Positions 8,149 through 22,145 of a stretch of 64,000 bases of DNA are shown piece after piece. Origin of the DNA: Aestuariivirga sp. (GTDB taxonomy: Bacteria > Pseudomonadota > Alphaproteobacteria > Rhizobiales > Aestuariivirgaceae); contig NZ_JADCDA010000008.1 of assembly GCF_020252405.1 (NCBI RefSeq), forward strand, positions 157,184 to 221,183, written 5' to 3'. Under the pieces are notes generated by a model. It searched no databases and was not told where the DNA came from. It saw only the letters and a program-made list of their open reading frames with translations. Position numbers and translations under genes: made by a program. Numbering within the stretch: the first letter of the stretch is position 1; every line of letters begins with the position of its first letter.

Positions 8149-9345
8149 ATGAAGAGCTTTCTGCAACTGGGACTGGGCGCCGCGCTTGGCGCGCTGATGC
8201 TCGCGGCGCCGGCGGCCATGGCCGCCGGCGACAAGATCGTCGTGGGCTTCGCCACGGCGCAATCGGGCTTCATGCAGGCTTATGACAAGCCCGCGGAAGA
8301 TGCCGCCCGCATCCGCATCGATGAGATCAACAAGGCCGGCGGCCTGCTCGGCAAGCAGATCGAGATCGTCGCCGCCGACACCAAGACCGACCGCGCCGAG
8401 GGCGCCAAGGCCGGCCTCGAGGTGATCGACAAGGGCGCCGACCTGGTGGTCGTCTCCTGCGACTATGACTTCGGCGCGCCGGCGGCGCTCGCCGCGGAAG
8501 CCGCGGGCAAGGTCTCCTTCTTCCTCTGCGCCGAATCGGTCAAGGCCGGCATTCAGGGCGTGGGCCCGCATTCCTTCTCGGCCTCGGTGCTCGCGGCAGT
8601 GCAGGGCGCCACCATGGCGGAATGGGCCTATAACAAGAAGAACGCCCGCACCTTCTACCGCCTGCTCGACACGTGGACCGAGTATAACAAGGGCATCTGC
8701 GACGGCTTCGACTGGCAATTGCCGAAGCTGAAGGATGCCAGGCTCGTTGGCGAGGACACCTTCAAGAACGATGACGCCTCGATCGCGGCGCAGATCACCC
8801 GCATCAAGAGCCTGCCGCAGGAGCCGGACGCCATCATGCTCTGCACCATGATGCCGGGCGGCGTTTCGGCCGTGAAGCAGATCCGCGCCGCCGGCATCAA
8901 GTCGATGATCCTCAACGGCTCCGGCATGTCCGGCAGCTACTGGCTCTCGGCCACGCCGGATCTCTCGAACTTCTTCGTGCCCGACCAGGGCTCGGTCCAT
9001 GGCGATGACCCGAACCCCAAGGTCAACGAGTTCAACGCCATGTACAAGGCGGCAACGGGCTCCGATCCGTCCAGCCAGTATGTTTATCCGGGCTATGTGA
9101 TGATCGACGTCTGGGCCAAGGCCGTCGAGCGCGCCAAGTCGACCGACGCCGATGCGGTCGTGGCCGAACTCGAGAAGATGAAGGACGAGCCGACCCTCTT
9201 TGGTCCGCGCACCTTCACGGCCGAACTGCATCACCAGAACAAGGGCCGCTACCTGATCACCGCCGTCGAAAACGGCAAGGCCCGTGTGGTGGACGAGTGG
9301 ACGATCTCGGAGCCGATCCCGGTCGACTATCTCGCCAGCAAGTAA
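8149..9345 (+). CDS. ABC transporter substrate-binding protein (periplasmic-binding type I)
   Basis: Periplasmic receptor of the importer. A Sec signal peptide MKSFLQLGLGAALGALMLAAPAAMAAG is followed by the type I periplasmic-binding fold (KIVVGFATAQSGFMQAYDKPAEDAARIRIDEINKAGGLLGKQIEIVAADTKTDRAEG). Start ATG 8149 is preceded by an excellent Shine-Dalgarno (AAAAGGAGG), stronger than those of the upstream genes, as expected for an abundant binding protein. It is 398 residues, normal for the family, and the last gene of the operon; a GC-rich palindrome follows at 9362. The ligand is unknown. Confidence 0.94.
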   Translation: MKSFLQLGLGAALGALMLAAPAAMAAGDKIVVGFATAQSGFMQAYDKPAEDAARIRIDEINKAGGLLGKQIEIVAADTKTDRAEGAKAGLEVIDKGADLVVVSCDYDFGAPAALAAEAAGKVSFFLCAESVKAGIQGVGPHSFSASVLAAVQGATMAEWAYNKKNARTFYRLLDTWTEYNKGICDGFDWQLPKLKDARLVGEDTFKNDDASIAAQITRIKSLPQEPDAIMLCTMMPGGVSAVKQIRAAGIKSMILNGSGMSGSYWLSATPDLSNFFVPDQGSVHGDDPNPKVNEFNAMYKAATGSDPSSQYVYPGYVMIDVWAKAVERAKSTDADAVVAELEKMKDEPTLFGPRTFTAELHHQNKGRYLITAVENGKARVVDEWTISEPIPVDYLASK

Positions 9346-11730: not shown

Positions 11731-13398
11731 GTGGCCGCGCCGAACGACATCTTCCGCAAGGCCCTGGCGCTGCATCAGGGCGGCGTGCTTGCCCCGGCAC
11801 AGGCGCTCTATGCGCAGGTGCTGGCGCTGGACCCGCGGCACTTCGACAGCCTGCACCTGATGGGCCTCGCCCTCGTCCAGTCGGGCGAGGCGGCGAAGGG
11901 CGTCGAGCTGATCCGCCGCGCCATCGCGCTGCGGCCGGGCTTCGCCGAGGCGCATTACAATCTCGGCAATGCGCTGCTGACGCTGGGGCGGCCCGCCGAG
12001 GCGCTGGAGAGCCTGCGCCAGGCGCTGGCCCTCAAGCCCGGTGACGCGCAGTGTCACCTTGAGGCCGGGAATGCGCTGAAGGACCTGAAGCGCGGCGAGG
12101 AGGCAATTGCCGCCTATGACGTTGCGCTGCGGCTGGACCCGCGGCTGGCGGAAGCGCACAACAACCGCGGCATCGCGCTCAGGGACGGGGGCCGGCCGGA
12201 TGAGGCGCTGGCGGACTACGATGCGGCGCTCAGGCTCCGCCCGCGCTATGCGGAGGCGCACAGCAACCGCGGCAATGCGCTGAAGGAGCTGGGCAGGCTG
12301 GAGGAGGCGCTGGCCTGCCATGACCGGGCCATCGCTTTGCGCCCGGCCTATGCGGAAGCGCATTACAACCGGGCCAATGCGCTGGCTGAGATGGGGCGTT
12401 CCGACGCGGCGCTGGAGAGCTTTGACGCGGCGCTGCGGCTGCGCCCCGATTATGCCGAGGCGCAGCACAACAAGGCCCAGCTGCTGCTTGGTCTGGGGCG
12501 CTTCGGCGAGGGTTTCGGCCTTTATCATTGGCGCTGGAAGAGCCCGGCCTTCTCCAGCGCCAGGCCGCCGCTTGCGCTGCCCGCGTGGGACGGCCGCGCG
12601 GACGGCCCCGTGTTGCTGTGGGGCGAACAGGGGATCGGCGACGAAATCCTCCATGCCTCGCTGCTGTCACTGCTGCCGGAGGGGCTCAGTGCCACGCTGG
12701 CGGTGGACCGGCGGCTCCTCGCCATTTTCCGGCGCTCGTTTCCGCAGGTGCGGGTCATCGATGGCGCGCTGCCGCCCGAAGGGCATTTCACCGCGCAGGC
12801 GGCGCTGGGCGACCTCGGCCACCTGCTGCACGCCGATGCGGCGCGGATTGCGGCGCGGCGCATGCCGTTCCTGAGGGCCGACGCGGCGCGGCGCGATGGG
12901 CTGCGGCTGGACAATCCGTTCCTCGCCAGGCGGCCGGTGTGCGGCCTGTCGTGGAAGAGCGCCAACAAGAAGTTCGGCGCCGAAAAGAGCCTGCGCCTGA
13001 TCGACCTCGCCCCGCTCATCGCCACCCCCGGCATGAGTTTCGTGAACCTGCAGTATGGCGAGGTGGAGGATGAGATCGCCGAGGTGCGCGCCGCACTGGG
13101 CGTGAGCGTGCATCAGGGCGAAGGGCTCGACGTGTTCAATGACATCGACGGGCTCCTCGCCCTCGTCGATCTCTGCGATGCGGTGCTGACCACCTCCAAC
13201 GTCACGGCGCATCTGGCGGGCGCGCTGGCGAAACGGGGCGTGGTGCTGGCGCCTTCCGGCAAGGGCTGCCTGTGGTATTGGCAGGGCGGACCCAACGACC
13301 TATGGTATCCCAGCCTGCGGCGCATCGCCCAGGACAGGGCCGGGCAATGGCAGGCCGCCATCCGCATGGCCGCCACGGCGATAAAGGACAGTCCATGA
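11731..13398 (+). CDS. TPR-repeat glycosyltransferase family protein (paralogue 1)
   Basis: 555 residues. About seven 34-residue tetratricopeptide repeats occupy residues 5-265 (units such as AEAHSNRGNALKELGRLEEALACHDRAIALRP). From about residue 290 comes a GT9/GT-B-like C-terminal domain that starts PVLLWGEQGIGDEILHASLL and ends with LTTSNVTAHLAGALAKRGVVLAP. Known proteins of this layout are annotated as TPR-containing glycosyltransferases; acceptor and donor are unknown. The GTG start follows two repeat elements. The next gene overlaps by 4 bp (ATGA). Its last third is almost identical in DNA to the paralogues at 14088 and 20142. Confidence 0.85.
   Translation: MAAPNDIFRKALALHQGGVLAPAQALYAQVLALDPRHFDSLHLMGLALVQSGEAAKGVELIRRAIALRPGFAEAHYNLGNALLTLGRPAEALESLRQALALKPGDAQCHLEAGNALKDLKRGEEAIAAYDVALRLDPRLAEAHNNRGIALRDGGRPDEALADYDAALRLRPRYAEAHSNRGNALKELGRLEEALACHDRAIALRPAYAEAHYNRANALAEMGRSDAALESFDAALRLRPDYAEAQHNKAQLLLGLGRFGEGFGLYHWRWKSPAFSSARPPLALPAWDGRADGPVLLWGEQGIGDEILHASLLSLLPEGLSATLAVDRRLLAIFRRSFPQVRVIDGALPPEGHFTAQAALGDLGHLLHADAARIAARRMPFLRADAARRDGLRLDNPFLARRPVCGLSWKSANKKFGAEKSLRLIDLAPLIATPGMSFVNLQYGEVEDEIAEVRAALGVSVHQGEGLDVFNDIDGLLALVDLCDAVLTTSNVTAHLAGALAKRGVVLAPSGKGCLWYWQGGPNDLWYPSLRRIAQDRAGQWQAAIRMAATAIKDSP
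12931..13253 (+). repeat. Near-identical 323-bp segment, copy 1 of 3
   Basis: This segment encodes VCGLSWKSANKK through TAHLAGALAKRGVVLA. It aligns without gaps to 15915-16237 and 21663-21985, including silent positions. Between copies 1 and 3 the similarity extends upstream by about 80 bp (RMPFLRADAARRDxLRLDNPFLA). This is best explained by recent duplication or gene conversion. Confidence 0.8.
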
Positions 13399-14075
13399 CA
13401 GAGCGCGTCAATCTCATCGTCGGCTTCGACCAGCGCGAGGCCATTGCCTATCACGTGTTCTGCCAGAGCGTGATCGAGAAGGCGAGCCTGCCGGTGCAGT
13501 TCATGCCGCTCAATCCGCAGGCCATCGCGGGCTACACCGAGCGCCACCGCGACGGCAGCAATGTGTTCATCTATACGCGTTTCCTGACGCCCTATCTGAT
13601 GGGCTATCAGGGCTGGGCGATCTTCGCCGACGGCGACATGGTGTGCAACGCCGACATCGCCGGGCTGTGGCGGCTGCGCGACCCTTCGAAAGCGGTGATG
13701 GTGGCCAAGCACGACTACAAGACCAAGGCCGCGACCAAGTATCTCGGCAACAGGAACGAGAATTATCCGCGCAAGAACTGGTCCAGCGTCATCCTGTGGA
13801 ACTGCGCGCATCCCGCCAACCGCCAGCTCGACCCCGGCTTCGTCGAGAGCAAGGACGGCGCTTATCTTCACCGCTTCACCTGGCTCGGCGACGGGCTGAT
13901 CGGCGAGATCCCGAAGGAATGGAACTGGCTCGCCATCGAGTATGACGCCAATCCGGCGGCCAAGCTGGTGCATTATACGCTCGGCACGCCATGCTTCGCC
14001 GGCTACCGCGACACGGACATGGCGGAGCTCTGGCACGGGGCGCTCGGCCGCGCCGAGGAAGGCCTGGGAAAATAG
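13395..14075 (+). CDS. Glycosyltransferase, GT-A-like
   Basis: 226 residues from ATG 13395, which overlaps the preceding stop (ATGA). The N-terminus VNLIVGFDQREAIAYHVFCQSVIEKASLPVQFMPL resembles the start of GT8-like enzymes, and IFADGDMVCNADIAGLW supplies an acidic DGD motif of the kind that binds metal-nucleotide-sugar in GT-A folds. Later motifs are WSSVILWNC and LVHYTLGTPCF, the latter placed where GT8 enzymes carry a conserved His. No signal peptide or membrane segment is seen, so it is probably cytoplasmic. Coupling with the TPR-glycosyltransferase suggests successive steps on the same acceptor; the sugar is unknown. Confidence 0.8.
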   Translation: MTERVNLIVGFDQREAIAYHVFCQSVIEKASLPVQFMPLNPQAIAGYTERHRDGSNVFIYTRFLTPYLMGYQGWAIFADGDMVCNADIAGLWRLRDPSKAVMVAKHDYKTKAATKYLGNRNENYPRKNWSSVILWNCAHPANRQLDPGFVESKDGAYLHRFTWLGDGLIGEIPKEWNWLAIEYDANPAAKLVHYTLGTPCFAGYRDTDMAELWHGALGRAEEGLGK

Positions 14076-14087
14076 GCTTATCCGCTG

Positions 14088-16400
14088 ATGTCCAACACGC
14101 TCATCAGGCTGCGCCGGGCGGTGGGGCTGCTCGAGGCGGGCGACTTTGCCGGCGCCATTGGCGTGGCGCGGACGGTCCTGCTGGCGGAGCCGCGCAATTT
14201 CGATGCCTTGCACATCGTGGCGCTGGCGGGCTTGCGCCGCGGCGAGCCCGACACCGCGCTGGCGCACATCGAAAAGGCGCTGAGCGTGCGGCGCGACATG
14301 GACGGGGCCTTCAACACCCATGGCATGATCCTGCGCGCGCTCGGCCGCCTGGACGAGGCGGCGGAGGCCCTCGGCAAGGCGGTGAAGCTCAATCCGAAAT
14401 CGCGCGAGGCGCATTACAACCTCGGCAACTGCCTCCAGGACCTCGGCAGGCCTGCCGCCGCCCTCGAACGCTATGACGCGGCGCTCAGGCTCGACCCGTC
14501 CATGCTCATGGCGTGGAACAACCGCGGCCTCGCGTTGCGCCGGCTGGGGCGCGGCGCGGAGGCGGTGGCAAGCTTCGGCGAGGCGATCCGCCGCGCCGCC
14601 TCCTTCGCGCCGGCCTATTCCAACCGCGGCGATGCGCTGGCGGCGCTGGGCCGGCGCGACGAGGCCATCGCCGATTATGACCGCGCCATCGCGCTCAAGC
14701 CCGATTTCGCCGAAGCCCATTGCAACCGCGCCAACGCGCTGATGGAACAGGGCGAGACGGCGGCGGCGATCGCCGGCTATGACCGCACGCTGGCGGTGGC
14801 GCCGCGCTTCTTTCAGGCGCAGATGGGCCGCGGCATCGCCCTGGCCGCCCTGGGGCGCCCCGCGGAGGCGGAGGAGTGGATCCGCCGCGCCGCCGCCCTC
14901 GAGCCAGGCTCCGCCGAGGCGCAGTACAATCTCGGCAAGCTGCTCCGCGAGCAGGGGCGGCCCGGGGAGGCGTTGGCGGCCTATGACCGGGCCATCGCCA
15001 GCAATCCCGGCCATGCCGAATCGCACGGCAACCGCGGCACCGCGCTGAAGGAGCTGGGCCGGATGGACGAGGCGCTGGACAGCCTTGACCGCGCCATCGC
15101 GCTCAACCCCGATTTCGCCGAGGCCCACAGCAACCGCGGCAATGTGCTGGCCGAGCTGATGCGCTTCGAGGCGGCGCTGGCCGCTCACGACAGGGCCGTG
15201 GCGCTGCAGCCGCAGGCCGCCGAATTCCATGTCAACCGCGGCGGCGCGCTGAAGGAGATGAACCGCCTGGAGGAGTCGCTGGCCTGTTTCGACCGGGCCA
15301 TCGCGCTCCGGCCGGACTATGCCGAGGCCTATTCCAACCGCGGCAACGTGCTGCGCGAGCTGGGCCGGCTCGACGAGGCGCATGCGAGTTTCGACCGCGC
15401 CATCGCGCTCAGCCCCGGCGCGGACGCGATGCGCTACAACAAATCGATTTTGGCCCTCGAGTCGCAGGACCTGGCGCTTGGCTTCGCGCTCTACCGCACC
15501 CGCTGGAACACGCCGGACTTGTTGGGGCAAAGGCCGCGCAGCGCAATACCCGGCTGGGACGGCAGCGCGCCCGGCGGGCCACTGCTGCTGTGGGGCGAGC
15601 AGGGGGTCGGCGACGAGGTCTTTTATGCCTCGCTGCTGTCGCTGCTCGATCCGGGCCTGTCCGCCATCACCGTGGCGGCGGACCGGAGGCTCCACCCGAT
15701 CTTCCGCCGGTCCTTCCCGGGCCTGTCGCTGTGCGACCGCGCGGAGATGCGCGAGGAGATTGCCGGCGATTTCGCCGCGCAGGCCCCGCTGGGCGATCTC
15801 GGGCACCTGCTCGGCGTGGATGCCGCGGCGCGCGCCCGGCGGCGCATGCCCTATCTCATCGCCTCGCCGGAGCGGCGGCGGCAGCTGCTCGCCGATAACC
15901 CGGTTCTCGTCAGGCGGCCGGTCTGCGGCCTGTCGTGGAAGAGCGCCAACAAGAAGATAGGCCCGAAAAAGAGCCTGCGCCTGATTGACCTCGCCCCGCT
16001 CATCGCCACCCCCGGCATGAGTTTCGTGAACCTGCAGTATGGCGAGGTGGAGGATGAGATTGCCGAGGTGCGCGCGGCACTGGGCGTGAGCGTGCATCGG
16101 GCCGAAGGACTCGACGTGTTCAATGACATCGACGGGCTCCTCGCCCTCATCGATCTCTGCGATACGGTGCTGACCACCTCCAACGTCACGGCGCATCTGG
16201 CGGGCGCGCTGGCGAAACAGGGCGTGGTGCTGGCCCCCGTTGGCAGTGGCCGCCTGTGGTACTGGGGCGGCGAGCGGCAGAGCCTGTGGTATCCGAGCCT
16301 CACCCTCGTCCACCAGCAGCGCATCGGCGGGTGGGACGCGGCGCTGGCCGAGGCCTGCCCCCTGATCCGCGGCCTCGACGCGGCGCGTCTTGTGCTCTAG
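14088..16400 (+). CDS. TPR-repeat glycosyltransferase family protein (paralogue 2, large)
   Basis: 770 residues, the largest of three paralogues. Roughly thirteen TPR units run from residue 5 to about 470, many with near-consensus wording such as AEAHSNRGNVLAELMRFEAALAAHDRAVALQP. The C-terminal GT9/GT-B-like domain begins near residue 495 (PLLLWGEQGVGDEVFYASLL). Its final 110 residues match those of the neighbours almost exactly, while the segment just before (RRMPYLIASPERRRQLLADNPVLV) has diverged. It starts 12 bp after the GT-A-like gene and probably belongs to the same operon. The extra TPRs imply a larger or different partner protein. Confidence 0.85.
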   Translation: MSNTLIRLRRAVGLLEAGDFAGAIGVARTVLLAEPRNFDALHIVALAGLRRGEPDTALAHIEKALSVRRDMDGAFNTHGMILRALGRLDEAAEALGKAVKLNPKSREAHYNLGNCLQDLGRPAAALERYDAALRLDPSMLMAWNNRGLALRRLGRGAEAVASFGEAIRRAASFAPAYSNRGDALAALGRRDEAIADYDRAIALKPDFAEAHCNRANALMEQGETAAAIAGYDRTLAVAPRFFQAQMGRGIALAALGRPAEAEEWIRRAAALEPGSAEAQYNLGKLLREQGRPGEALAAYDRAIASNPGHAESHGNRGTALKELGRMDEALDSLDRAIALNPDFAEAHSNRGNVLAELMRFEAALAAHDRAVALQPQAAEFHVNRGGALKEMNRLEESLACFDRAIALRPDYAEAYSNRGNVLRELGRLDEAHASFDRAIALSPGADAMRYNKSILALESQDLALGFALYRTRWNTPDLLGQRPRSAIPGWDGSAPGGPLLLWGEQGVGDEVFYASLLSLLDPGLSAITVAADRRLHPIFRRSFPGLSLCDRAEMREEIAGDFAAQAPLGDLGHLLGVDAAARARRRMPYLIASPERRRQLLADNPVLVRRPVCGLSWKSANKKIGPKKSLRLIDLAPLIATPGMSFVNLQYGEVEDEIAEVRAALGVSVHRAEGLDVFNDIDGLLALIDLCDTVLTTSNVTAHLAGALAKQGVVLAPVGSGRLWYWGGERQSLWYPSLTLVHQQRIGGWDAALAEACPLIRGLDAARLVL
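15915..16237 (+). repeat. Near-identical 323-bp segment, copy 2 of 3
   Basis: Counterpart of 12931-13253 inside the second TPR gene. Similarity drops sharply upstream of the segment, so the homologous tract here is shorter than that shared by copies 1 and 3. Confidence 0.8.
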
Positions 16401-16430
16401 ACGTGCCGGTGACACAACGGAAGCGCCGGA

Positions 16431-17090
16431 ATGCCGCTCTACCAGTACCGCAAGGACCCGTTCGAAAGGACCTTCCTGTTCATCCACGTGCCCAAGACGG
16501 GGGGCACGGCAATTGAGACTTTTTTCCGCGGCGTGGGCCTTGCCGGCTATTTCGATCCGCCCGCCTATGCGCCGGTGCGGCCCTACATCAAGGTGCCTCC
16601 GGCGCATTACGACTATGAGGTGCTGAGCCGCCTGTTCGAGCTCGATCGTCTTTACAGCTTCGCCATCGTGCGCGATCCGGTGAGGCGGATGGTGTCGCAG
16701 TATAAGTGGGCGGCCGAGAAATCCACCCAGGCGGAGACGATAGCGAAGATGGATTTCGGAAGCTTTCTGCGCCTCATGTTCGCCGAATACCGCCGCGACG
16801 AAAACGTCGCCGCCGGGCATTTCAAGCCGCAGGTGCGCTTCGTGGGCGCCAAGGTGACGAAGATTTTCAGGTACGAGGCCGGGCTCGAGACAATCATCCG
16901 CCAGGTGCTGGAGGATGTCGGCTTCAAGCCGCAGGGCGAACTGAGGCTGCCGATGGTGAACACATCATCGGCGCGCAAGGTGGAGCCGACCGCCGCCGAC
17001 ATCGCGCTGATCCGCGACGTCTATGCCGAGGACTGCAAGGCCTTCGGCTATGACGCGGGTCCGCCACCGAACGATGCGATGAAGGCGTAA
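16431..17090 (+). CDS. Sulfotransferase family protein (family 2-like)
   Basis: 219 residues. The PAPS-binding loop is clear near the N-terminus (TFLFIHVPKTGGTAIETFFRGVGL, residues about 11-34), and the second signature YSFAIVRDPVRRMVSQYKW lies near residues 77-95, where Arg and Ser bind the 3'-phosphate of PAPS. These are the hallmarks of carbohydrate sulfotransferases of the sulfotransferase family 2 type. No signal peptide or anchor is seen. The gene is 30 bp after the large TPR gene on the same strand. Its 3' end overlaps the convergent sulfotransferase gene by 43 bp. The acceptor is unknown, probably a glycan made by the adjacent glycosyltransferases. Confidence 0.87.
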   Translation: MPLYQYRKDPFERTFLFIHVPKTGGTAIETFFRGVGLAGYFDPPAYAPVRPYIKVPPAHYDYEVLSRLFELDRLYSFAIVRDPVRRMVSQYKWAAEKSTQAETIAKMDFGSFLRLMFAEYRRDENVAAGHFKPQVRFVGAKVTKIFRYEAGLETIIRQVLEDVGFKPQGELRLPMVNTSSARKVEPTAADIALIRDVYAEDCKAFGYDAGPPPNDAMKA

Positions 17091-17725
17091 TCTGCTGCAT
17101 AGACCTCACGGATGAAGTCGAGATGCCTCGGCGCGAGATCGTTGGGGGTGATGAGTTGCGCCGATTTGTTGCGGTGTTGGAGCGGGCTTTTCAAACTGGC
17201 CTTGGCCTGGATCTCCGGAAACCGGTTCTTGAGCCGTTCGAGCATGAACAGGTCCTTCACCATGACCCCGCCATCGGGTGCGGTCACGAAATCGACTTGC
17301 GGGCGGACGAAGTGGAAATGGTTGCTCGCCGCATTCTGCTGTTCGGGGCCAGCGTTGCCGCACGCCAACTGGCGCGCCAGCCACTTGAACAGGAATGTGT
17401 CGACATCGATGGGCCGCTGGTCAGGGCCGGCGATGCGGAGATAGTTGTAGAGCGACAAGGCGCGGGCGGCGGGATCGCGCAGCACGGCGAAGGAATAATA
17501 GGACGCGAAGAGTTCGGGGCTCAGATAACAGTAGCTGGCATAGTCCCGCGCCAGCAGATGGGCGAGCCGCGGCGGGCCGAGGCGCGGATCGTCATTGGGC
17601 CGCAACAGCAGGGGCGCGCGCAGCTCCCAGCTGAGGCCAAGATCGGTGAGGAAGGCCTGTTCGACGCTCTGGCCGCCGCATTTGGGAATGTGGACGAAGA
17701 CCGTGCGGTGAAAATGGGAAATCAC
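17048..17725 (-). CDS. Sulfotransferase family protein (opposite strand)
   Basis: 225 residues on the minus strand. The 5' PAPS-binding motif is FVHIPKCGGQSVEQAFLTDLGL at the very N-terminus and the 3'-phosphate motif is YSFAVLRDPAARALSLYNYLR. The track runs back to a TTG at 17782, but the GTG at 17725 (reading MISHFHRTVFVHIPKCGG) follows AAGAGAG and places the motif at the usual distance, so I chose it. The 3' end overlaps the convergent sulfotransferase by 43 bp. It is the only gene of this locus on the minus strand and is divergent from the next one. Confidence 0.83.
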   Translation of the reverse strand: MISHFHRTVFVHIPKCGGQSVEQAFLTDLGLSWELRAPLLLRPNDDPRLGPPRLAHLLARDYASYCYLSPELFASYYSFAVLRDPAARALSLYNYLRIAGPDQRPIDVDTFLFKWLARQLACGNAGPEQQNAASNHFHFVRPQVDFVTAPDGGVMVKDLFMLERLKNRFPEIQAKASLKSPLQHRNKSAQLITPNDLAPRHLDFIREVYAADYAFIASFGGGPAS

Positions 17726-17919
17726 GACAAAACTCTCTTGGCATGAAGGAAGGATGCTAGGTGAGGGACGCGGCGGACGCAATCGCGATTGCCGGTCGGG
17801 ACGCTGCCGACCCGGCTGAAATCGGGCTGGCGGTTTGCGGGCGGGTTCAGTAAAGAAATGCTGGCCTTTAGGACTTCGTGGCCAACGCCATACCGCGCGT
17901 GGCGCTGAGAGTGGGACCC

Positions 17920-18615
17920 ATGCACGACTTCGGCAAGATCGTCTATCTGGACCTTCAGAAGACCGGCAGCAACTTCGTCTCGCAGTTCCTGAGGGCGGCC
18001 TGCATCCATCCCGAGAGGGGCCTCCAAAAGCACAGCTGGGTCGACGCGGACTACCGGGAAGACAGCATCTATTTCATCACCGTCCGCCAGCCGGTGATGC
18101 TCTACTCCTCCCTCTACCGCTTCGGCCTGGACCAGCGTGGCGGCGTCTATGTCAATCTCAGGGTTGCCGGCATGCTGTCGGTCTATTCCTCCTTCGAGAC
18201 CTTCACCGACTTCCTGCTCGATCCGGCGAATGCCGTCTTTCTGCACCCGCACTATGACCGCAGGATTGCTGAGGAGATGGGGTTCATGTCGTTCCGCTTC
18301 CTGCTGCTCAACCTGCAGGCCCCTGTGGGCAGGATCGGGCGCTGCGTGGAACAGGGACAGCCGCTGTCCAGCCTGATGCAGCAGTCGATCATCAACCATG
18401 TGCTGAAGAACGAAAGCCTAAACTTCGATCTGCTGCGGCTGAGCACCGAAACGCTGCCTGAGCATTTCGACCGGGACAGGGCACGCGCCTTCCTTGCTGC
18501 CGCGCCACGCGCCAACCCGAGCAAGATGGCAGCGGACGCGCTGCGCATCGAGTCCCGCGAGCTGCTTGACCGCGTGGCGGCGCGCGAACAGCTGCTCATG
18601 ACCTGTTATCCATGA
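17920..18615 (+). CDS. Sulfotransferase-like P-loop protein, divergent
   Basis: 231 residues from ATG 17920 (preceded by GAGAGTGGGA); a GTG 42 bp upstream at 17878 is the alternative start in the ORF track. The N-terminus KIVYLDLQKTGSNFVSQFLRAA has the layout of a 5'-PSB loop (KTGSNF in place of KTGGTS), and YFITVRQPVMLYSSLYRFG matches the region of the 3'-phosphate motif, but with RQP in place of RDP. The remainder is unlike the other two sulfotransferases. It may be a true but divergent sulfotransferase or a relative that lost activity. No membrane segment seen. Confidence 0.68.
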   Translation: MHDFGKIVYLDLQKTGSNFVSQFLRAACIHPERGLQKHSWVDADYREDSIYFITVRQPVMLYSSLYRFGLDQRGGVYVNLRVAGMLSVYSSFETFTDFLLDPANAVFLHPHYDRRIAEEMGFMSFRFLLLNLQAPVGRIGRCVEQGQPLSSLMQQSIINHVLKNESLNFDLLRLSTETLPEHFDRDRARAFLAAAPRANPSKMAADALRIESRELLDRVAAREQLLMTCYP

Positions 18616-18662
18616 ACGCCGCCATGCGTACTGCAGTAGCGTGACTTTTGGAGAGGCCCTGA

Positions 18663-20102
18663 ATGGCGCAGCCCAACCCCGCCCGCACCTATGTGATGGC
18701 CTATTGGCCCATTCCGGGCAATGCCAAGCGCCCGCTCGATCATTATACCGAGCACCTGGCGCTGAGCCTTCAGATGCTGGCCGGGCAGAACCTCTATTTC
18801 ATCAGCGGCAACAACAAGGTTCTGTCCTCGGTGGAGAGCCTGTCCCAAACACACGGTATCCGGCTGCACCTGCAAAAGGTGCTGCTCGACGACTTGCCCA
18901 AGCGGCCGCAGATGGAGGCGCTGCTGCAGCGCGCCCGGAATTTCGGCGCGAAGTTTGCAGCACCGCCCGCCGACTTCCAACGCGACAAAGGCCTGATCCA
19001 CTATTGGAGGGACCTGCGGCAGTCGGGCGAGGACACGTTCAAGCGCGTGTTCTGCATCTGGCACAGCAAGATCGGCCTGCTGCACAATGCGGCGGTGGAG
19101 AACCCCTTTGGCAGCCTGCACTTCGCCTGGGCCGATGCCTCGATTTCGCGCTTCAACCGGCAGCGGGCGGGCTGGGACTTCCGGGAGATCGAGGCGATCC
19201 CCGGCGTCATCCGCCATTATCCGAATGTCATGCGCAAGAACGGACGCGAGCTGGCGCTCAACGCCAGCTTCCTGCTCGGCGACCGCGCCGCCATCGACGC
19301 ACTCCACGCCGCCTATGGCAAGGCCTTCGCGGCGAGCCTCGGGGAGGACTACCCCAATGACGAGGAGACAGTGCTCGACAGCGTGGTGGCCCGGCAGCCC
19401 CAGCTGTTCCGCGCCATTACCGGCGCGGCTGCGGCTCCCACTCCAGCGGCGGGCAGCCGACGGAAGGTTCTCGTGGTGGGCGCGTTCCGCTCCGGCACCA
19501 ATGCCATGCAGTCCTGCCTCGAGGCGCATTTCGACGTCGAGGTGACCTTCAACGAATGGTTCTGGAAGCATGGCGTTCCGCCCACCGGCATCCAGTGCCC
19601 GGTGCCGCCCGACGTGCCAGTGGTGGTGATGGCGAAGTCGCCCTATGCCTTTCATGAATCGCTTTACCCGTTCTGGCTTCACCGGCGGCCGAACCTCGAT
19701 TCGGGCCCCGATGTCTCGGCCTTCGCGCGCAGGGAACTGCAGGTCTTCGACGTGAGCGGCGGCGATCTGGCCCGCCCGAAATACTGGTTCCGCTGCCCCA
19801 CCGACTACTGGAACCATTTCTACTTCTCCTGGCTGAGCTGGACGGCGGTGCGGCCGCGCTGCCAGTTCGTGCGCTACGAGGACGTTGACCGATCCACCCA
19901 TGACGTGATCGCCCGCATTGCGGAGCGCTTCGGTCTGCGCCGCAAGACCTCGGGCCCTATCACGCTTCCGGCCGAACGGGTCGGCCCGCATGTGCCGACG
20001 GAGCGCAAGGGCGAGCGCTTCCTGCTGACGGAGGAGGACAGGGCATGGATCCGCGGCATGGTGCATCCGCTGGTCGCGAGATCGCTCGGCTATGAGCTCT
20101 GA
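18663..20102 (+). CDS. Two-domain protein: HtrL/WlaTC-like N-terminus plus sulfotransferase-like C-terminus
   Basis: 479 residues. The first half (YVMAYWPIPGNAKRPLDHYTEHL, LYFISGNNKV, VFCIWHSKIGLLHNAAVENPFGSLHFAWADASISRF) resembles the HtrL/WlaTC family found in polysaccharide gene clusters. After an Ala/Pro linker (about residues 255-265) comes a second domain beginning KVLVVGAFRSGTNAMQSCLEAHFDV, a P-loop of sulfotransferase type, followed by VVVMAKSPYAFHESLYPFWL and CQFVRYEDVD, the latter resembling the RYEDL motif of sulfotransferases. A fusion of these two activities would be unusual. Start ATG 18663 follows TTTTGGAGAGG. Function is inferred only from the domains. Confidence 0.65.
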   Translation: MAQPNPARTYVMAYWPIPGNAKRPLDHYTEHLALSLQMLAGQNLYFISGNNKVLSSVESLSQTHGIRLHLQKVLLDDLPKRPQMEALLQRARNFGAKFAAPPADFQRDKGLIHYWRDLRQSGEDTFKRVFCIWHSKIGLLHNAAVENPFGSLHFAWADASISRFNRQRAGWDFREIEAIPGVIRHYPNVMRKNGRELALNASFLLGDRAAIDALHAAYGKAFAASLGEDYPNDEETVLDSVVARQPQLFRAITGAAAAPTPAAGSRRKVLVVGAFRSGTNAMQSCLEAHFDVEVTFNEWFWKHGVPPTGIQCPVPPDVPVVVMAKSPYAFHESLYPFWLHRRPNLDSGPDVSAFARRELQVFDVSGGDLARPKYWFRCPTDYWNHFYFSWLSWTAVRPRCQFVRYEDVDRSTHDVIARIAERFGLRRKTSGPITLPAERVGPHVPTERKGERFLLTEEDRAWIRGMVHPLVARSLGYEL

Positions 20103-20141
20103 CATCTTCCGCAGCTTTATGCCGGATTGGTGACGGATGAG

Positions 20142-22145
20142 ATGACGTCTTCCGGCCACGACATGTTCCGCAAAGCGCTCGCGCTTCACCAGCGGGGTGA
20201 CCTCGCGGGTGCGCGGGGGCTTTATGCGCAGGTGCTGAGGAAGGACCCCCGGCACTTCGACAGTCTGCATCTGCTTGGCCTCGTCCTCGTCCAGTCCGGC
20301 GCGCTGGCGGAGGGGGCGGATCTCATCCGGGAGGCGATCGGTGTCCGGAGCGATTTTGCCGAGGCGCATTACAATCTCGGCCATGCGCTGCTGAGCCTCG
20401 GCCAGCCGGAGGAGGCGTTGGCGGCCTTCGACCGCGCCCTGGCGCTTGGCGCCGCCGACCCGCTTTATCACTTCGAGCGGGGCAACGCGCTGAAGGAGCT
20501 GGGCCGCGGGGCGGAGGCCATGGCCAGTTTCGATGAGGCGCTGCGCCTGGCGCCGCGCCTTGCCGAGGCCCACAACAACATGGGCATCCTGCTCAAGGAG
20601 GAGGGCCGCCTCGCGGAGGCGCTGGCGTGCTATGACCGGGCGATCGGCCTGAGGCCCGGCTATGCCGAGGCCCATGCCAACCGGGGCAATGTGCTGAAGG
20701 AACTGCGCCGCTATGGCGAGGCGCTGGCGAGCAACGACCGCGCCCTTCAGCTGAAACCCGATTATGCCGAAGCCCACAGCAACCGCGGCAATGTCCTGGC
20801 GAGGCTGGGCCGCCACGCCGAGGCGCTGGAAAGCCACGACCGGGCGCTGCGGCTCAGGCCTGACTATGCCGAGGGCCACAACAACCGCGGCAATGCGCTG
20901 AAGGAGCTGGGCCGCTTCGCGGAGGCGCTGGAGAGCTTCGACCGGGCCATCAGCCTGAAGCCCGGCTATGCCGAGGCCTGCTCCAACCGCGCCGGCGCGC
21001 TGGAGGAGATGGGCCGCATGGCGGAAGCGCTGGCGGACCACGAGAAGGCCGTGGCGCTGAAGCCCGGTTCCGCCGATGCCTGGTGCGCGCGCGGCAATAC
21101 GCTGGCCGATCTCGAAAGGCTGGACGAGGCGATGGCGAGCTATGAGCGGGCGATCAGCCTCAAGCCGGGCTTCGCCTCTGCGCATTACAATGCTTCGCTG
21201 CTGCTGCTGCGCAAGCGCGATTTCGCGCGGGGCTTTGCGGGCTACATGCAGCGCTGGGCCGCCGAGCAGGACAAGGCGACGAAGCCGCAGACGGCTATTC
21301 CCGCATGGGACGGAGGCACAGTCGCGGGCGGGCTTCTGCTCTGGGGCGAACAGGGCCTGGGGGATGAGGTGTTTTTCGCCACGCTGCTGCCGCTGATCGA
21401 CCCGTCCATCAGCCTCGCCCTGTCGGCGGACCGGCGGCTGCACCCGGCCTTGTCACGCGCCTTGCCGCAGCTGCGGCTGCTGGACCGGAAGGACATGTCC
21501 GAAACCATCGCAGGCCCCTTCGCGGCACAGGCGCCGATGGGCGACCTCGGCCACCTGCTGCAGCTGGATGCGGGCCGGATTGCCGCGCGGCGCATGCCGT
21601 TCCTGAGGGCCGATGCGGCGCGGCGCGATGCGCTGCGGCTGGACAATCCGTTCCTCGCAAGGCGGCCGGTGTGCGGCCTGTCGTGGAAGAGCGCCAACAA
21701 GAAACTGGGCGCGAAAAAGAGCCTGCGCCTGATCGACCTCGCCCCGCTGCTCGCCACCCCCGGCATGAGTTTCGTGAACCTGCAGTATGGCGAGGTGGAG
21801 GATGAAATCGCCGAGGTGCGCGCCGCACTGGGGGTGAGCGTGCATCAGGCCGAAGGGCTCGACGTGTTCAATGACATCGACGGGCTCCTCGCCCTCATCG
21901 ATCTCTGCGATGCGGTGCTGACCACCTCCACCGTCACGGCGCATCTGGCGGGCGCGCTGGGCAAGCCCGCCGTGGTGCTGGCGCCCGTTGGCGGTGGCCG
22001 CCACTGGTATTGGGGCGGGGAAAGCCCCAGCCTGTGGTACCCAAGCCTGCAACTCGTCTATCAGACGCAGGCCGGTGACTGGGCAGCCGCCATTGCGGAG
22101 GGCACGCGGCGGGCGGTCGGGCTGGTGAAAACCGGGGTCTTGTGA
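20142..22145 (+). CDS. TPR-repeat glycosyltransferase family protein (paralogue 3)
   Basis: About 667 residues from ATG 20142 (MTSSGHDMFRKALALHQRGDL); TTG 20127 and GTG 20130 are alternative starts. About ten TPR units cover residues 8-365 and the GT9/GT-B-like domain begins at about residue 395 (GLLLWGEQGLGDEVFFATLL). N-terminus (FRKALALHQ, YAQVL, DPRHFDSLHL) and C-terminus closely match paralogue 1, so these two are nearest relatives. The conserved end reads LTTSTVTAHLAGALGKPAVVLAPVGGG. It closes the accessory locus; a 119-bp gap without recognisable features separates it from the RND genes. Confidence 0.85.
   Translation: MTSSGHDMFRKALALHQRGDLAGARGLYAQVLRKDPRHFDSLHLLGLVLVQSGALAEGADLIREAIGVRSDFAEAHYNLGHALLSLGQPEEALAAFDRALALGAADPLYHFERGNALKELGRGAEAMASFDEALRLAPRLAEAHNNMGILLKEEGRLAEALACYDRAIGLRPGYAEAHANRGNVLKELRRYGEALASNDRALQLKPDYAEAHSNRGNVLARLGRHAEALESHDRALRLRPDYAEGHNNRGNALKELGRFAEALESFDRAISLKPGYAEACSNRAGALEEMGRMAEALADHEKAVALKPGSADAWCARGNTLADLERLDEAMASYERAISLKPGFASAHYNASLLLLRKRDFARGFAGYMQRWAAEQDKATKPQTAIPAWDGGTVAGGLLLWGEQGLGDEVFFATLLPLIDPSISLALSADRRLHPALSRALPQLRLLDRKDMSETIAGPFAAQAPMGDLGHLLQLDAGRIAARRMPFLRADAARRDALRLDNPFLARRPVCGLSWKSANKKLGAKKSLRLIDLAPLLATPGMSFVNLQYGEVEDEIAEVRAALGVSVHQAEGLDVFNDIDGLLALIDLCDAVLTTSTVTAHLAGALGKPAVVLAPVGGGRHWYWGGESPSLWYPSLQLVYQTQAGDWAAAIAEGTRRAVGLVKTGVL
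21663..21985 (+). repeat. Near-identical 323-bp segment, copy 3 of 3
   Basis: Counterpart of 12931-13253 inside the third TPR gene. The last 30 bp differ more (GGCAAGCCCGCC in place of GCGAAACGGGGC), which marks the probable end of the homologous tract. Confidence 0.8.

Follow-up and report, generated by a model that had tools for sequence, protein, structure and literature searches.

A predicted fusion of a GT-A-like, HtrL-like domain and a sulfotransferase domain in Aestuariivirga sp.

HtrL/YibB-like proteins, such as HtrL/YibB of E. coli and WlaTC of Campylobacter jejuni, are encoded in the LPS and lipooligosaccharide gene clusters of much-studied bacteria; their Pfam family, HtrL_YibB (PF09612), is annotated as 'of unknown function'. 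PAPS sulfotransferases, described by the Pfam families Sulfotransfer_3 (PF13469) and Sulfotransfer_1 (PF00685), include SULT1A3 and heparan sulfate 3-O-sulfotransferase. Both domain types are thus already known, and what is new here is their union in one chain, so far in one genome. The gene lies in a 64,000-nucleotide stretch of the Aestuariivirga sp. genome, which was analysed as a whole and is called the window below (Table 1).

The original prediction for this gene was of a single chain carrying a sugar-transferase-like domain and a sulfotransferase domain. The two-domain reading is supported by the analysis presented here, with both activities predicted from the domains.

A single open reading frame

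The gene forms one unbroken frame on the forward strand, with an ATG start and zero internal stops. Its predicted coordinates and its length of 479 residues proved exact, and all of the motifs quoted for it were found. In the full-length AlphaFold model (pTM 0.57), the Ala/Pro linker is a low-confidence hinge and the relative orientation of the two domains is not predicted. GC content by codon position stays in phase through the fusion junction. Codons 242–271 contain no in-frame ATG, GTG or TTG, which makes a separate start for the sulfotransferase unlikely; most likely, it is produced solely as part of the fusion protein.

It is very improbable that the cell has two distinct genes here and that an assembly or base-calling error joined them. 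The genome is a draft of 107 contigs and relatives carry two genes, but the coding phase is continuous over the junction, if a single indel were responsible, the sulfotransferase would have no start codon close by in its own frame, and the linker lacks the N-gene tail and C-gene leader that are present in Tropicimonas and in genome G823. By codon phase and the start-codon scan, a frameshift or misassembly is thus unlikely. The opposite strand of 18663–20102 is also open, as merely the mirror of a GC-rich gene, and was rejected as a candidate. NCBIfam and PHROGs gave nothing useful.

Table 1. Features of the fusion gene and of the surrounding locus (window coordinates).
Feature	Position	Strand	Basis
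Fusion gene: GT-A-like domain, Ala/Pro linker, sulfotransferase domain; 479 aa	18663..20102	+	ORF, Pfam, model, codon phase
Shine-Dalgarno-like GGAGAGG, 6 bases 5' of ATG	18650..18656	+	Sequence
N domain, residues 1-252; predicted GT-A fold, weak HtrL_YibB match	18663..19418	+	Pfam, model, alignment
W156-A-D158-A-S160, end of predicted strand, place of GT-A DXD	19128..19142	+	Alignment, model
D233-E-E-T236, invariant in five N-family members	19359..19370	+	Alignment
Ala/Pro-rich linker, residues 253-265 (about); no in-frame start codon	19419..19457	+	Full-length model, start-codon scan
C domain, residues 266-479; putative sulfotransferase	19458..20099	+	Pfam, fold, alignment
G273-AFRSG-T279-N280 loop	19479..19502	+	Alignment of nine relatives
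K302-H303, invariant in nine C-family members	19566..19571	+	Alignment
TPR protein, same locus in congeners	11731..13398	+	Pfam, congener comparison
GT8-like glycosyltransferase (ORF 13272-14075; likely start 13395)	13395..14075	+	Pfam, congener comparison
TPR protein	14088..16400	+	Pfam
Sulfotransfer_2 protein, 74-87% identical at same place in three congeners	16431..17090	+	Pfam, congener comparison
Sulfotransfer_2 protein	17051..17782	-	Pfam
245-aa ORF, P-loop-like KTGSN near start	17878..18615	+	ORF list
TPR protein, end of locus	20127..22145	+	Pfam, congener comparison

Fold and conserved residues of the two domains

The AlphaFold model of the N-terminal half, calculated from seven aligned sequences, is confident (pLDDT 86.5, pTM 0.88). 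With the exception of GlmU, a nucleotidyltransferase whose fold is similar, its 45 PDB hits at E ≤ 1e-3 are GT-A-fold glycosyltransferases, headed by XXYLT1 (xyloside xylosyltransferase 1; 1.2e-6). TM scores were moderate against PDB glycosyltransferases (about 0.4–0.5) and about 0.7 against structures predicted for viral proteins, among them a glycosyltransferase of Bodo saltans virus and uncharacterised proteins of pithoviruses. The confident model and the PDB matches argue for a GT-A fold in this half, as opposed to an unrelated one.

By Pfam profile, the proposed likeness of the N-terminal half to HtrL/WlaTC proteins was marginal for the window protein itself and did not extend to its relatives. 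When cut out, residues 1–256 scored 26.7 bits against PF09612 (E 5e-6; curated cut-off 24.1 bits), the match being confined to residues 123–254 and to profile positions 112–256 of 267; the uncut fusion protein, at 24.0, fell just under the cut-off. The window protein is the only one of the five N-family members to pass, and the four relatives, which are 33–36% identical to its N-terminal half, gave no match. Profile-profile comparison of the N family with true HtrL_YibB proteins, represented by only two members, was weak (hhalign probability 9.6, E 0.0033). In the joint alignment, W115, K136, W156 and D158 are common to both groups, W156 and D158 being invariant. Because the four relatives are unmatched by PF09612 and the profile comparison is weak, the N family is best described as HtrL-like rather than as a clear member, its membership appearing marginal. 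A PF09612 search of 385 genomes of the class and 399 of the phylum returned almost nothing, and HtrL_YibB genes are therefore rare there.

D158-A-S160 is invariant in the N family in place of the classic D-x-D and, from its position, may be DXD-like. The KGxxHYWRD, WxDAS, NAS and DEET blocks are invariant in the five N-family members. These residues bear on an explanation in which the sulfotransferase alone is catalytic and the HtrL-like domain, having lost glycosyltransferase activity, would bind or position a glycan. The presence of D-A-S rather than DXD is consistent with such a loss, as are the unproven activity of HtrL_YibB and the greater divergence of the N-terminal half from its Tropicimonas homologue (36% identity) than of the C-terminal half (53%). 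However, the invariant blocks could form an active site, and one of the five members, from genome G633, has no sulfotransferase neighbour; we regard this explanation as unlikely.

The C-terminal half, cut out as residues 257–479, scored above the cut-offs of both PF13469 (29.5; cut-off 27) and PF00685 (23.9; cut-off 22), while the uncut protein fell just under both (26.6 and 21.1). Both Pfam families are matched by four of the five members of the C family. Residues G273, G278-T279-N280, K302-H303, P307, P327 and S333 are invariant across nine C-family relatives. The loop beginning at G273 we take to be the 5'-phosphosulfate-binding loop of PAPS sulfotransferases; by comparison with SULT enzymes, K302-H303 is presumably the catalytic Lys-His pair, and we take S333 to be the serine of the 3'-phosphate site. 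Structural agreement is weaker than for the N-terminal half: the full-length model matched human SULT1A3 with E 2e-3, prob 1.00 and TMt 0.50, and the best PDB sequence match to the C-half profile was heparan sulfate 3-O-sulfotransferase 3A1 (E 0.012). The Pfam scores and putative PAPS-site residues point to a PAPS sulfotransferase, in agreement with the sulfotransferase-like P-loop noted originally. An APS kinase is encoded within a 659-aa ORF of the same genome, so the cell can make PAPS.

Separate homologues and a variable sulfotransferase slot

Homologues of the two halves are separate genes, often neighbours, and the halves do not make up one known single family. In Tropicimonas marinistellae, the N gene (L004, 7974–8810) and the C gene (from an ATG at 8807) share a 4-bp ATGA overlap; in genome G823, the N gene is followed in tandem by the C gene; and on a plasmid of Aliiroseovarius sp. 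M344 the two are convergent neighbours. Counting the fusion, four of the six N-family loci include a C-family partner. The N-family genes of the other two, in G633 and G1282, lack a C-family neighbour within the stretch that was retrieved, so the pairing is not a strict one. In a tree of nine rows with long branches, the C halves that have an N partner group in a single supported clade (98/96); lone C-family loci were also found.

In other genomes, wider C relatives lie directly 5' of a Glycos_transf_2-like gene. Such a pair adjoins an apparent sdhA in three Tropicimonas-family genomes (L022, 7722–8477; L023, 8249–9732; L026, 7139–8622), preceding sdhB in L022 and L023. In L023 the two genes overlap by 4 bp, and the glycosyltransferase shares 33.5% identity with KfiA, the GlcNAc transferase for the K5 polysaccharide of E. 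coli. An E. coli 'plasmid' record with kfiA (NZ_CP051613.1) has 1,808 bases, a small size that suggests an assembly fragment. On a plasmid of Aureimonas sp. AU20 (L009:6004–7586), a lone C-family sulfotransferase lies directly 5' of cysC (adenylyl-sulfate kinase).

The fusion gene is part of a block (11731–22145) of genes for TPR proteins, a GT8-like glycosyltransferase and sulfotransferases. Congeners G018 and G029 keep the block order: TPR, GT8-like (90–93%), TPR, Sulfotransfer_2 (74–87%), a variable stretch and TPR. This variable slot (window 17090–20127, compared with L049, L050 and L029) holds other sulfotransferase-like genes in both. In the window, the 245-aa ORF upstream of the fusion gene had no Pfam or PHROGs match and is possibly another, diverged sulfotransferase. 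In congener G011, one sulfotransferase-like gene is followed by a short remnant (L029:1650–1829, about 22–60 codons) just 5' of the TPR gene. The remnant aligns with the end of the window C half at a score of 95, whereas 2,000 shuffles reached at most 56, which indicates that a related sulfotransferase gene, fused or unfused, once stood at the same place. In a separate genome, G813 (L024:7543–9029), a Sulfotransfer_2 gene 46% identical to that at window 17051–17782 lies directly upstream of a C-family sulfotransferase, overlapping it by 4 bp, among glycosyltransferase genes.

Of 37 congeners, a single one has the one-chain arrangement, which was originally put forward as an unfamiliar combination. 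No second fusion was detected in about 1,990 genomes (repeats counted; searched with the whole protein for part and with the N profile or PF09612 for the rest), in a genome-contig scan, or in viral contigs, plasmids and phages, and viral and phage searches gave no relative of the whole protein. Among open-licence papers, no description of an HtrL- or glycosyltransferase-sulfotransferase fusion was found. The same two domains in one chain, and hence a conserved fusion family, were thus seen nowhere else searched. A chance fusion of neighbours in a recombining sulfotransferase slot, with no common substrate, tolerated and functionally meaningless, would account for this single occurrence, for the varying slot content among congeners and for the existence of N-only and C-only loci. 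Yet the N and C genes lie side by side in three further genomes, each time arranged differently, and we consider pure chance improbable.

Possible function and relation to known systems

The reading that we favour, and think probable, is a Rosetta-stone fusion in which two adjacent genes that already worked together became one, giving a bifunctional cytoplasmic enzyme that would carry out sugar transfer and sulfation on the same glycan. The N domain would use a nucleotide-sugar donor to add a sugar to a growing cell-surface glycan, and the flexible linker would let the C domain add a PAPS sulfate to that sugar or to an adjacent one. That the halves are separate and often neighbouring in related bacteria suggests joint action toward a sulfated sugar decoration. 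The bifunctional reading is supported by the single frame encoding both domains, the GT-A fold modelled for the N half, the PAPS-site residues, the neighbouring homologues, the PAPS-synthesis gene, and the glycosyltransferases and sulfotransferases that adjoin the gene; the D-A-S motif, the HtrL_YibB annotation, the rarity of the fusion, the N-family genes that lack a C partner and the low-confidence domain orientation weigh against it. The shared substrate, cytoplasmic location and surface-glycan product are, like the two activities, what we infer from this evidence.

A stronger form, in which a true glycosyltransferase-sulfotransferase adds and sulfates a sugar in one binding event and offers the first functional handle on an HtrL/YibB-type domain as a glycosyltransferase with a sulfated product, is conceivable, though we consider it less likely than not. 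The GT-A model together with a fused or neighbouring sulfotransferase nevertheless suggests a testable function for HtrL/YibB-like proteins, namely making a sugar that becomes sulfated, and a single-chain enzyme would be a handy tool for producing sulfated glycans.

Among known systems, GT-A enzymes of the GT6/GT8 type (XXYLT1, blood-group GTA/GTB, alpha-1,3-galactosyltransferase) share the predicted fold of the N half, which differs from them in its low identity (about 10%), its TM of 0.4–0.5 and its D-A-S in place of DXD. The HtrL_YibB proteins resemble it in the weak profile match, the invariant W-x-D and an association with surface-glycan genes; unlike the fusion, the members seen here are unfused and adjoin LPS-type glycosyltransferase genes. 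With PAPS sulfotransferases the C half has in common the Pfam match, PAPS-loop, Lys-His pair and SULT-like fold, and it departs from them in being a short bacterial version that follows a glycosyltransferase-like domain in the same chain. Further counterparts are the two-gene pairs of Tropicimonas marinistellae, the Aliiroseovarius plasmid and G823, in which the same two protein families are adjacent, as overlapping, convergent or tandem genes rather than as one chain.
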